Assembly (NCBI RefSeq): GCF_023703795.1
Contig: NZ_CP098518.1
Location: 2,480,001-2,544,000, forward strand
From: Haloplanus sp. HW8-1
GTDB lineage: Archaea > Halobacteriota > Halobacteria > Halobacteriales > Haloferacaceae
Reading direction: 5' to 3'
Length of the DNA: 64,000 nt
Below are positions 9,021-46,922 of the stretch, piece after piece; within the stretch, counting starts at the first letter, position 1; each line of letters opens with the position of its first letter. The notes beneath the pieces are model-generated. The model was not told where the DNA came from. It saw only the letters and a program-made list of their open reading frames with translations, and ran no database searches. The position numbers were made by a program, and so were the translations under genes.

Positions 9021-9349
9021 CACGGCCGACGCCGATTGCAGGATCTATAGTAGTCTTTGTAAATCATCGCCCACCTGATCGCACGCAGTCCTGCGTCAGG
9101 TGTGAAACAGTTCCAAACGCGACTATAGTTCGCGTGGTCGGCTCGCAGTCCTGACGAACGGACCACCCTCGACGCGTTGCTGACGGCGACGAACTGCCGG
9201 GACGAGGAGTGTACTATCGACGAGTCCGAAGAGTCGGTCTGACGTGGCAAGACAGCTAATATCGTTCGTCTCGTCTATTATCATCGCGAGCGTCAGGACG
9301 GGAGGGTTGACTGCTGACGTACCATCCTCCTGAACTGCGACCGATCTGT
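9021..9349. other. intergenic with hairpin element and possible gene remnant
   Basis: Apart from the hairpin element at 9045-9128, the plus strand at about 9138-9242 has an open tail rich in acidic residues with two cysteines (CRDEEC, then ESEESV and a TGA). No start codon in frame, so at most a gene remnant. Confidence 0.35.
9045..9128 (-). repeat. dispersed hairpin element, copy A
   Basis: 84-base imperfect palindrome, CTATAG at both ends. Read on the minus strand: TTTGGAACTGTTTC, a stem around CACCTGA, a loop, the stem complement, then GATGATTTACAAA. It shares the CTGT / GATGA internal loop with copies B, C and D. Lies 25 bases after the methyltransferase stop. Confidence 0.8.
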
Positions 9350-11198: not shown

Positions 11199-11603
11199 GT
11201 GAGTGCCACGACATTCGAATTGGAAACGCTGGGGCAGCGTTGTCGCCGTTCCGGCTCGAAGAGACGGCTTCGACTCCCCATATCGACGCAGTCGTTCTGT
11301 TGCTCCAGCGAGACTACCACTGCCGGAAGTGCCGGCAACAGGTGCAAGGCGTCGCCGCCCGCTACGACGACGTTCATCGAGGAGCGCGGGATCGACTACC
11401 GGCTGTTCAGCGACCCGCAAAACGGCGTCGCCGAGGACTATGGCATCGTCAACGATCTCGATGGGATGGCAGGAATCAGCGAACCACGGCCTGCCGCGTT
11501 CCTCATAGACGAGGAACGGAGGGTTCAGTACGCCTGGGTGGCCCAGAAGTGGCCGGATTTCCCCGACTACGACGAGATCAAGGACGAACTCGCTGCCCTC
11601 TGA
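11199..11603 (+). pseudogene. broken peroxiredoxin-like gene
   Basis: Remains of a redoxin related to the gene at 5406-5900, split between two plus frames. The start MSATTFELETLG (11199 frame) shifts near 11230 into the frame that reads SPFRLEE...VLLLQRDYHCRKCRQQV with the CxxC site. It shifts back near 11370 to FIEERGIDYRLFSDPQNG and runs to the TGA at 11603. About 20 residues expected between the active-site helix and the DP strand appear missing. At least two frameshifts and an internal deletion make it non-functional. The hairpin element B begins one base after the stop. Confidence 0.8.
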
Positions 11604-11604
11604 T

Positions 11605-11686
11605 ATAGTAGGGTTTGTAACTGTCCGCACACCTGATCGCATGACAGCGTGCGACCAGGTGTGTGATGACTTACAAAGGCTACTAT
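11605..11686 (+). repeat. dispersed hairpin element, copy B
   Basis: 82-base palindrome, the best-paired copy. Arms begin ATAGTAGGGTTTGTAACTGT and end GATGACTTACAAAGGCTACT; the inner stem is CACACCTGATCGCA against TGCGACCAGGTGTG. Begins one base after the stop of the broken peroxiredoxin. Confidence 0.85.
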
Positions 11687-11764
11687 CGGAACGATCGAAA
11701 GTCATCAGCGGTTCCCGCCGTGACGGGTGGGCGAACCACCGGTACCGACGTACAATATGCCGTA

Positions 11765-15275: not shown

Positions 15276-15334
15276 TCACCGTGCCCGAGCCGGGCGGTTT
15301 ATTCACTTCCCTGTGATCGGGTAGGAATCACGTT

Positions 15335-15580
15335 CAATGGCCCAATGATTAGATCCATCTGATTGCGGTATAGATGTAGCGAACCGCGGGACGAAACCGC
15401 CATCGGTCGGAATCGGTCAGTAGCTGAACGAAATCAACGGCAGTGCACTCAGAGCCGATGATATCGACGATCACCCCGTCGTTGTCGTGCGATTACGACC
15501 GAGAAATCGGCGATGGGCGCTGCAGGCGCTCGTTCGGTCGGCGAACGAAGTCCCTTGATGGGCCTGAGACGGTCGAAATC
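15335..15580 (+). repeat. long direct repeat, left copy
   Basis: About 246 bases matching 19628-19874 in the same direction, roughly four of five bases by eye and almost unbroken in the last 100. Best-kept stretches are CCCAATGATTAG near the start, GGCGATGGGCGCTGCAGGCG, and GAACGAAGTCCCTTG. Both copies can be translated on the minus strand with similar peptides (KGLRS...APAAPIA.FS), but no intact gene is evident. Probably a remnant of the end of a mobile element. Confidence 0.75.
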
Positions 15581-15729
15581 GGGGGTTCTGAATACACCGC
15601 TGAGAAGGATATGTCGGTCTCGGTCGCTGACACTCCGAGAGACGACTCGCATATCGCAGATCGAGGATCCGTTTCCATCGCACCGGGTTCGATCCGTGAA
15701 TACAAGGCGACCCTCCTCAAAGAATAGAT

Positions 15730-17306: not shown

Positions 17307-17375
17307 GCATTCAGGACTGCGTTGCGACAGTAGAATCAAGTGTTCTGCTCTATTATCCTGCTGAGAGGCCAACTA

Positions 17376-17798
17376 ATGGAGATTTCTGAAGAACTCGAAT
17401 GTTTGTTTTCAGCCTCGATCGTAGAACAGGACGGGTCGTCCGTGATTGAGGTCCCCGAGCGCGAACTGCAACTGGGTGACCTACAGCAAGGAGAAACATA
17501 TCGCGTCGCACTCGTATCTTCTCCGACACAGAGCGAGTCGGAACAGACCGAACAGGCTGAACCGGAATCACAGCAACAGCGTCAGCCACCGGAGCCACCA
17601 GTTGAGGAAGGTGAGACTCGGGAAGTCGAGATTGAAGACCTCGGCGAACAGGGTGATGGCATCACTCGAGTTGAACGTGGCTTCGTCGTAATCGTACCTG
17701 ATACCAAAAAGAGTGAGCGAGTCAACATTGAGATCACCGATGTACGACAAAACGTCGCTTTCGCTGAGGTCGTCGACCGGTTGAGTTACTACGAGTGA
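17376..17798 (+). CDS. TRAM domain protein
   Basis: 140 residues. The C-terminal 60 (about 78-138) form a TRAM RNA-binding beta barrel: REVEIEDLGEQGDGITRVERG then VVIVPDTKKSERVNIEIT and NVAFAEVV. The N-terminal half has a short beta region and a Gln/Glu/Pro linker (about 50-75). Haloarchaeal TRAM proteins are small RNA-binding, chaperone-like regulators. ATG 17376 is chosen for the normal N-terminus MEISEEL and an AT-rich box about 23 bases upstream (17350-17357). Confidence 0.85.
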   Translation: MEISEELECLFSASIVEQDGSSVIEVPERELQLGDLQQGETYRVALVSSPTQSESEQTEQAEPESQQQRQPPEPPVEEGETREVEIEDLGEQGDGITRVERGFVVIVPDTKKSERVNIEITDVRQNVAFAEVVDRLSYYE

Positions 17799-18193
17799 TT
17801 TCTCGCTGTGCGGTCACCACACTTGAGAACTGTTAGTATTCCGCTCCGATGACACAGCGGATACGCACCGGCTACCTGCCAGAAATAGCGTGACCGATAC
17901 AGAGAGTGTAATCAGCAAAATGTCCGGACTGTATTGGGAAAATAGGAGGCGTGGATGGTGTGCCCAACTGGGTAGCAAATTCGAAGTCCTATCGGTCGTA
18001 TATACCCGTCCGTGTACCGGAATCTCCGCCGGACATACGAGTTGTTCGCTCCGGAATTGGGGAGACGAATCGGGACGGCCACCGACTGAGCGATTGTCAG
18101 TATGTTGGACCATTGCTGGCGTCAGATCAACGGCCACCACTGTCGGCTCCGCCAGAAGTGACTAATCGGAACGGTTTCGAGGTGTGCCGGGAG
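17799..18193. other. intergenic, no feature recognised
   Basis: 395 bases between convergent genes. Several 60-110 codon frames exist on both strands, none with a motif, promoter or family resemblance. Nothing supported. Confidence 0.4.
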
Positions 18194-19226: not shown

Positions 19227-19627
19227 GTTGAGTCCATTAGTCCTATAGCGGATTTACTCCTTTGCCATCGCCTCAGCCTCGGCCGAGGGTAACTAGAGCA
19301 AACTCGAACCCCGTGTTTGAGGGCTCTACCCGCGGACGCGTCGTCGTGAGGCGGTTACAGTATTCGTGCGTCACCGACGGCGGGGTAGTTCAAGGGACCC
19401 GTGATTATTGCTATGATCATTCCACTAAAACCGACACATCTCATTCACGAATTCCAATAAAATGTCGCTCCCGATTCATTTGACCAAATTGAAACGTAGT
19501 ATTAAAATCTATCCGCCGGAGCGGGGACTACGAAGACAACCCTCAATCAGCAATAGTAGGTGGCTCGTGACCAACCACTCTCAGCTCTCAATACTGCTGG
19601 GCTCAGTTGATTGCAGCCGAGAGACAT
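19227..19627. other. intergenic, AT-rich, no gene recognised
   Basis: Low-GC spacer upstream of the right long repeat. Contains a short CAAAC...GTTTG hairpin at about 19302-19320 and AT-rich runs near 19435-19510. No convincing reading frame. Confidence 0.4.
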
Positions 19628-19874
19628 CAATGACCCAATGATTAGCAGCCATGCGCCACGCCGTAGAGGCGGCGAACCAGAGGACGAAACCGCCGTCAAT
19701 CGGAATCGTTCAGTGGCCGAACGAAAGCAACGGCATTGCACTCAGAGACGGTGATATCGACGACCATCCCGACGCTGTCGTGCGATTACGAACGAAAATT
19801 CGGCGATGGGCGCTGCAGGCGCTCGGTCGGTCGCTGAACGAAGTCCCTTGCTGGGCCTGAAACGGTCGAAATCG
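19628..19874 (+). repeat. long direct repeat, right copy
   Basis: Second copy of the ~246-base repeat at 15335-15580, same direction. It ends 45 bases before the integrase fragment. The two copies bracket the 4-kb stretch of zinc-finger, TRAM and winged-helix genes. Confidence 0.75.
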
Positions 19875-19919
19875 ACACCCTGAGATCGGCGGTTTGAGCC
19901 TCGGTTCGCAGCCGTAAAC

Positions 19920-23064: not shown

Positions 23065-23631
23065 ATGGTCACCGTCGCTGCGGTTGCCGGCAGTCTTCGG
23101 ACGGAGAGCTACACCCGACTCGCGCTCGACCACGCCCTCGACGCCGCCGAGACGGCCGGCGCCGAGACGGAGCTACTCGACCTCCGCAGTTTCGACCTGC
23201 CGCCTCTCGATCCGGACGTGAACGAGCAGGGCGATGCCGCCGCCTTCTCCCGGCAGGTCCGCGCGGCCGACGCCCTCCTACTCGGCTCCCCGATGTACCA
23301 CGGATCGTACTCCGGCGTGCTGAAAAACGCCATCGACCACTGCGGGTTCGACGAGTTCGAGGGCAAGACGGTCGGTCTGCTCGGCGTCGCCGGCGGCGCC
23401 TTCCCGATCACGGCGCTCGAACATCTGCGGTCGGTGTGTCGCGCCCTCGACGCGTGGGTGCTCCCACACCAGGCGGCCATCCCGCGGGCGTCCGCGGCCT
23501 TCGCGGACGGTGCGTTCGTAGACGAGGGACTGGCGGGGCGCGTTCACACCCTCGGCCGCCGAGTCGTCGAGTACGCCGCCATCGAACCAGAGCCGGCGAC
23601 CTTCGAGAGCGACCAGAACGTGGGTGGCTGA
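23065..23631 (+). CDS. NADPH-dependent FMN reductase (NADPH:quinone type)
   Basis: Flavodoxin-like fold of 188 residues: AGSLRTESYT phosphate loop (about 8-17), LLGSPMYHGSYSGVLKNAID (about 72-91) holding the FMN isoalloxazine contacts, and GLLGVAGGAFP (about 103-113). Predicted cytosolic FMN-bound reductase of quinones, azo compounds or flavin. It follows the SDR gene by 46 bases on the same strand, possibly one transcript. Hairpin element C starts immediately after the stop. Confidence 0.88.
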   Translation: MVTVAAVAGSLRTESYTRLALDHALDAAETAGAETELLDLRSFDLPPLDPDVNEQGDAAAFSRQVRAADALLLGSPMYHGSYSGVLKNAIDHCGFDEFEGKTVGLLGVAGGAFPITALEHLRSVCRALDAWVLPHQAAIPRASAAFADGAFVDEGLAGRVHTLGRRVVEYAAIEPEPATFESDQNVGG

Positions 23632-23632
23632 T

Positions 23633-23710
23633 ACGGATTATTGTAACTGTTCACCGGTGGTTCGCCGAGACGGTCCGCCGAACCGCCGGTGATGACTTAC
23701 AATAACCCGT
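23633..23710 (+). repeat. dispersed hairpin element, copy C (different stem)
   Basis: 78-base palindrome. Shares TTGTAACTGT and GATGACTTACAA with copy B, but the inner stem is CACCGGTGGTTCG against CGAACCGCCGGTG, a different sequence that still pairs. Starts one base after the flavin-reductase stop. Confidence 0.85.
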
Positions 23711-23753
23711 CTGAATCAGAACCCATTTGCCGACCGACCACCCAGACCCTCCC

Positions 23754-46714: not shown

Positions 46715-46770
46715 AAGCGTTACACGGTTCGGCCGGTTGGTGATGGCGGGTTCGCGTGCCCGGTGTTCGA

Positions 46771-46851
46771 TGTAGTAGCCTTCGTAAGTCATCGCACCTG
46801 ACCGACTGCAGTCCTGCGCCCGGATGGTCGAACAGCTCCGAACGCTACGAT
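46771..46851 (-). repeat. dispersed hairpin element, copy D (decayed)
   Basis: Minus-strand core TTCGGAGCTGTTCG ... GATGACTTACGAAGG, inner stem partly mispaired. Lies in the spacer between two divergent genes; the upstream reading frame of the 46956 gene runs through it, so that extension is not coding. Confidence 0.7.
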
Positions 46852-46922
46852 ACGCCATGGAGAGTACAAACGCTACTACACGCGACACGCCGCGTCGACG
46901 TTCCCGTCGACGACCGGAACAG

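Follow-up and report, generated by a model that had tools for sequence, protein, structure and literature searches.

Palindromic 80-bp elements of haloarchaeal genomes with the features of IS630-type miniature transposons

INTRODUCTION

Insertion of IS630 family transposons duplicates a TA target. Several short palindromic repeats that have been described resemble the elements reported here. RUP (Repeat Unit of Pneumococcus), a MITE of IS630-Spn1, is alike in size (about 100 bp), copy number (about 100), TA target, hairpin fold, IS630-type ends and a transposase provided in trans, as set out in the portions of PMC2229807 and PMC3049150 devoted to it. However, RUP is bacterial, measures 107 bp and has an unrelated sequence, and those portions describe neither a class with a TNA target nor placement at stop codons. 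ERIC and Correia (NEMIS) elements also have TA termini, a target duplication, a stem-loop spanning the whole element and intergenic locations, according to the sections of PMC2229807 that treat them; they too are bacterial, at 127 bp and 107 to 155 bp, respectively, and the evidence for RNase E/RNase III processing in those sections is theirs and not that of the present family.

Among haloarchaea, Haloquadratum walsbyi carries SMRs and MITEs of 80 to 110 bp, with prominent inverted repeats, no transposase and tens of copies (PMC3119063). Unlike the elements studied here, and as far as a comparison by description alone can go, the SMRs are reported to have neither a target duplication nor similarity to any transposon (PMC3119063). 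YPAL of Yersinia is likewise a palindromic mini-insertion with known empty sites that may affect upstream transcripts, but it is about 168 bp long, lacks TA termini and makes duplications of 3 to 26 bp. REPs and PATEs, which belong to the HUH systems, are palindromic, extragenic and present in high copy number; they differ in that PATEs have no target duplication and no terminal inverted repeats (PMC3119063) and REPs are only 20 to 40 bp long with a one-sided GTAG tag.

RESULTS

The window is the entire 64,000-bp stretch of Haloplanus sp. HW8-1 DNA that was analyzed. Elements were assigned to two classes. Class 1 has TAGTAGC tips and is flanked by TA (2 bp), usually inside CTAG, whereas class 2 has TACGG tips and is flanked by TNA (3 bp), mostly TGA or TCA. 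The original prediction had placed four hairpin copies in the window, and all four were recovered at 41 to 83 bits by R1, a covariance model made from 19 gap-free copies, with limits that agree to within a few bases with those first given. Copies B and C have a length of exactly 86 bp, made up of the 80-bp core and 3 bp at either side, and copies A and D are shortened by 2 bp.

Copy A (9045-9128, minus strand; class 1a; 57.9 bits, E = 2e-13) has a core of 78 bp (9048-9125) after two 1-bp losses. It lies between TA on either side, and its edges, read directly from the sequence, are CTA/TAGTCGC...GACTACTA/TAG, where slashes mark the limits of the core. Copy B (11603-11688, plus strand; core of 80 bp, 11606-11685; 82.1 bits) is a class 1a variant with CTGTCC. 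It starts on the final A of the TGA stop codon (11601-11603) that closes the upstream AhpC/TSA-like gene at 11199-11603, which matches Pfam PF00578. A degenerate fifth copy of 80 bp (11685-11764, minus strand), identified by a tip scan and sequence resemblance only, adjoins copy B; its left arm is class-2-like, its right arm is class-1b-like, and it gives no R1 match at E ≤ 10. Copy B appears to have inserted at the edge of this degenerate element.

Copy C (23629-23714, plus strand; core 23632-23711; 82.9 bits) belongs to class 2. Its duplicated TGA can be read directly at 23629-23631 and 23712-23714, and an FMN reductase-like gene (23065-23631; Pfam PF03358) uses the left TGA as its stop codon. 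Copy D (46770-46853, minus strand; core of 78 bp, 46773-46850; 40.6 bits) is a decayed class 1 copy, and a possible class 1 end remnant beside it (GTAGCGTTTGTAC, 46864-46876, minus strand) was found as a one-mismatch pattern match. Two other parts of the window, 15330-15599 and 19538-19876, are repeated near MITE copies in the genomes G000 and G096 at about 80 to 85% identity.

The element folds into an outer stem (core columns 4-18 with 69-83) and an inner stem (columns 23-38 with 49-64) closed by a 10-base loop. The outer helix first described as TTTGTAA against TTACAAA exists, but it extends to as many as 15 bp of the core, not 7. The internal loop between the stems does have CTGT on one side; its best pairing is a symmetric 4x4 loop against TGAC or TGAT, and not the asymmetric one predicted. 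In copy C, the left box CTGT occupies 23647-23650 (plus strand, columns 19-22) and resembles one end of the IS630-type element IS-B described below, and the right box TGAC occupies 23693-23696 (plus strand, columns 65-68) in an arm that resembles the other IS-B end. Compared with shuffled sequence, copies B (z = -5.6) and C (z = -6.1) fold far better than chance, copy A is marginal (z = -2.1), and copy D is no better (z = +0.3). Two structural motifs were dismissed upon inspection: a box C/D or kink-turn (GTGATGA/CTGT), since most class 1 copies have GCGATGA and the register forbids the inner stem, and a transcript terminator, since no T-run follows the stem.

A covariance-model search of haloarchaeal genomes, proposed along with the original prediction, recovered the window copies and the family across the host order. 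Copy numbers are lower bounds, and the search counts a palindrome on each strand; with matches on both strands merged, the element occupies at least 56 places in the window's own genome, and a reversed control pattern gave none. All 12 genomes sampled from the genus carry it. Across the host order it occurs in 36 of the 117 genomes sampled and in 21 of the 49 genera, and nearly all matches there are 84 to 86 bases long. A phylum scan of 295 genomes under stricter filters gave no match outside the host order. Plasmids of Haloferax mediterranei (19 places), Natrialba magadii (15 and 17) and Haloarcula hispanica (11) carry the element, and Halobellus, Natronorubrum and Halomicrobium are further carriers; among the matches listed, most have no annotated feature beneath them in the plasmid records. 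Rfam contains no matching family.

Pattern scans gave 11 matches in 84,980 species genomes, a set apparently without the window's own group and in which about 7.5 would be expected by chance (an estimate), and 1 in viral contigs. The sole haloarchaeal match of the former scan, L056, folds like a true copy. Recent bursts are represented by G096 and G247, each with about 20 copies that are nearly identical and lie at unrelated sites. In two species, L105 (G000:C1:2293486) and L180 (G090:C1:753874) hold the same element in the same place with flanks 99.8% identical, which suggests that this region was transferred recently. Tandem pairs of elements 1 to 3 bp apart occur in G247 (L165:2001-2173) and G190 (G190:C49:27970-28144), and an inserted element may thus offer a new target through its own ends.

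The length of the element is tightly fixed, with a tip-to-tip distance of exactly 80 bp in 156 of 162 pairs, some places being represented more than once. The core is short, encodes no transposase and is an inverted repeat over nearly its whole length, as in a MITE. Insertion also duplicates the target. In class 2, 54 of 62 copies have the same complete TNA 3-mer to the left and to the right, where shuffling predicts 25.5, and its middle base agrees in 60 of 62 (C/C in 32, G/G in 25, A/A in 2 and T/T in 1). This identity cannot be the result of pairing, since on the same strand C faces C and G faces G.

Empty sites agree with these duplications. Within G247, the filled locus L166 has an empty, 96%-identical duplicate, L163, which reads ...CACAGATG-TGA-GACGAG at the join; L166 has TGA on both sides of the element, a clean duplication. 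Two further comparisons, L111 with L190 and L192 with window positions 17319-17904, are at about 82 to 87% identity and fit a join at TA. For class 1, the case for a TA duplication rests on these two diverged sites, because statistics alone cannot separate TA from a conserved end. CTAG is under-represented, with 118 found against 294 expected from trinucleotides in the window genome plus L169-L188, and yet it is the preferred class 1 target.

A PF13358 search identified IS630-type transposases in the window's own genome (2), G096 (20) and G247 (19). The transposases of the candidate parents match PF13358 (DDE_3) with E values of 4e-24 and 1.5e-39 and also match NCBIfam NF033545, which is IS630. 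The limits of two full-length elements were obtained by comparing copies. IS-A is 1,055 bp long, with ends CTA/TAGTAGGCATTAGAAG... and CTA/TAGTAACCGTTAGAA..., tips CTA/TAGTA and a TA duplication. IS-B is 1,122 bp long, with ends TNA/TAGTGTCTAGGGAACTGTTTTACCG... and TNA/TAGTGTTTAGTTCGAATCTTTACCGGTG..., tips TNA/TAGTG and a TNA duplication; it has two reading frames, both matching the NCBIfam IS630 model, and two copies in the own genome, one between TGA and TGA and one between TCA and TCA. Class 1 and IS-A duplicate TA, and class 2 and IS-B duplicate the 3-bp TNA. The loci L243 and L246 (G000:C1:1338016 and 1655338) are IS630-type with a 3-bp TNA duplication and have separate frames for the HTH and DDE parts.

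The MITE left arm and IS-B end 1 have AACTGTTTACCG in common, with one T fewer in the MITE. The class 2 right arm and IS-B end 2 match along 24 bp (P = 0.002), L094, a MITE copy from another genus (G057) with a TAGTGTTTA tip, matches both IS-B ends (P = 0.001), and the class 1 arms match IS-A (P = 0.001 to 0.02); these similarities cover stretches of about 11 to 28 bp against hand-picked consensus ends, and all P values are uncorrected values for the best pair. On this short similarity, the MITE has ends in common with the autonomous elements IS-A and IS-B. Since its arms match the two IS-B ends, the best reading of the fixed internal loop (CTGT/TGAC) is that two differing ends of an IS630-type element would face each other there. 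No full-length IS with the exact class 2 tip (TACGG) was found, and with a close class 1 tip the own genome has no element with a longer interior, the ends always being about 63 bp apart. DDE_Tnp_1 (PF01609) elements were also considered as parents, but those examined have different ends. At L206 (G096:C1:840940-845026), two opposed class 1a copies flank an IS630 (DDE_3) gene (842099-842569), about 3.1 kb overall, and this pair could act as a composite unit.

The replacement of the stem between copies B and C with pairing retained is real and extends well beyond the window. In 29 order-wide copies, 28 of the 31 pairs are doubly changed and 89.8% of cells are paired, compared with 67.7% in shuffles and also above all slid registers; between nearest copies there are 9 paired double changes against 0.83 expected, and since these tests count related copies, the excesses are indications and not probabilities. 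The only differences between L158 and L151, for example, are at columns 30 and 57, which pair with each other. Inner-stem mismatches (columns 26-38) are equally divided, with 36 G-T and 31 A-C; therefore, the fold of neither strand is favored, whereas selection of one strand's fold in a structured RNA should favor G-U over A-C. In addition, eight loop sequences are present both ways round with respect to the asymmetric boxes, including CAGACTGCGT (6 times) and ACGCAGTCTG (5 times). Arm homogenization and spacer inversion are reported as products of template switching between inverted repeats (PMC8604942; see also PMC8794818), a process that explains both the paired changes with loop inversion and the lack of a G-T bias. 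The matching arm changes seem better explained by errors of copying at a palindrome than by an RNA fold with a function.

Gene context was taken from a simple codon-based gene caller. A stop codon lies exactly at the boundary of class 2 copies in 14 of 18 cases in the own genome, where the TGA is the duplicated target, in 9 of 11 in genus relatives and in 9 of 24 in G247. Of the sites at which an insertion would leave every gene intact, 40% are stop codons, and weighting by the preference for flanking bases raises this share to 58%. The 24 of 30 class 2 copies at stops give a P value of 8e-6 against the 40% null and 0.009 against the 58% null, the weighting being partly circular. Class 1b copies lie in a TAG stop inside CTAG in 8 of 11 cases (that of both convergent genes in 5), compared with 12 of 82 CTAG sites outside gene interiors. 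Class 1a has none of this placement.

Target sequence and selection explain the stop-codon placement of classes 2 and 1b only partly. Persistence beside stop codons is probably tolerated insertion, which accounts for much of the pattern and to which target preference perhaps adds. That these two classes truly prefer stops (TGA, preserved by the 3-bp duplication, and TAG, including a CTAG common to two convergent genes) and act as portable gene ends is unlikely; if they did, the stop-preferring elements would be bidirectional hairpins set between genes. It is possible that copies affect mRNA 3' ends.

DISCUSSION

We conclude, with a probability of roughly 88%, that these hairpins are a non-autonomous IS630-type MITE whose ends would be bound by a trans-encoded transposase and whose arms are most likely kept alike by template switching. 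A MITE was one of several options in the original prediction, and this option holds. At the level of sequence, the comparisons establish a family of fixed length with target duplications, empty sites and related IS ends that have the same duplication modes; that the IS630 transposase of the full-length elements moves the MITE today is what we infer from them.

In the proposed mechanism, the MITE is an 80-bp core that is palindromic almost throughout, and full-length elements of about 1.05 to 1.12 kb would supply an IS630-type transposase in trans that binds both of its ends. The asymmetric conserved boxes, AACTGTTT on the left and AAGTCAT on the right (read inwards), would each represent one of the parent's two differing ends. 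The transposase would excise or copy the MITE, which would insert at TA (class 1, with CTAG preferred) or at TNA (class 2, mostly TGA or TCA) and duplicate those 2 or 3 target bases. DNA polymerase would most likely switch template between the arms, homogenizing them and inverting the spacer, so that the arms change and yet stay complementary while the loop flips. The boxes would stay different because the transposase presumably needs both ends. The constancy of 80 bp across genera is not explained by template switching alone and calls for some constraint, for instance the geometry of synapsis.

The original prediction favored a conserved RNA or a hairpin recognized in folded form, and this reading is very probably wrong. 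Its argument was that the compensating stem reflects selection on structure and not mere copying, which is not supported, because the 2- or 3-bp target duplications, the empty sites and the related IS630 ends show copying by transposition; copies that prove to be the termini of a known IS or MITE with no transcript had been named in advance as evidence against it, and the copies do turn out to have the ends of an IS-related MITE. A structured RNA or mRNA 3'-end signal (for termination, processing or stability), in which the host keeps the hairpin for its fold in the transcript, is very unlikely even with the strong covariation, the predominance of convergent or tandem gene contexts and the class 2 copies at stop codons (24 of 30 in the own genome and genus, with nulls of 40% unweighted and 58% context-weighted) in its favor. 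The equal numbers of G-T and A-C mismatches in the inner stem, the decay of copies after insertion (copy D, z = +0.3; copy A, z = -2.1), the absence of a fixed relation of class 1a to genes, the absence of an Rfam family and the loop flips that accompany paired double changes all argue against it.

The perfect TNA duplications and the clean empty site weigh against another kind of hairpin, a REP/PATE-like element moved as a single strand by an HUH/Y1 (IS200/IS605, RAYT) transposase that reads the folded strand. REP/RAYT and PATE elements make no target duplication, and for IS605-type elements and PATEs, both target duplications and terminal inverted repeats are reported to be lacking (PMC3119063). 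The MITE recognized as a folded hairpin, as offered in the original prediction, is at odds with the duplications for the same reason. The imperfect hairpin with conserved mismatches, a GTAG close to the class 1 foot and four Y1_Tnp genes in the genome would suit such a system, but the element matches IS630 ends instead, and we regard this as highly improbable. More deserving of weight, although still tentative, is an IS630 MITE in which selection would maintain the pairing of the arms, since a cruciform or DNA hairpin would be needed by the transposase or during excision. The inner stem (columns 26-38) lies past most of the IS-end similarity and is nonetheless paired, at fixed length, in almost all order-wide copies, as this would require. 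However, proliferating copies often have stem mismatches, such as G-G at columns 11 and 76 and G-A at columns 16 and 71 in class 1a, and template switching produces arm changes and loop inversion without selection.

The IS630-type MITE favored here is of a known kind. No haloarchaeal IS630 MITE is described in the literature covered by our search, which did not include ISfinder, and the family is likely an undescribed one among the palindromic IS630-type MITEs, with a chance of about a third that it already has a name. A common haloarchaeal repeat that is unannotated in the plasmid records examined is now tied to a transposon family. For transposon specialists, the 3-bp TNA duplication beside the TA duplication in IS630-type elements and the placement at stop codons are of interest. 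The family is also a warning that textbook RNA-style covariation can come from template switching in a palindromic transposon, with no sign of selection on an RNA. With its many recent copies and loops in both orientations, it allows covariation by template switching to be tested directly.
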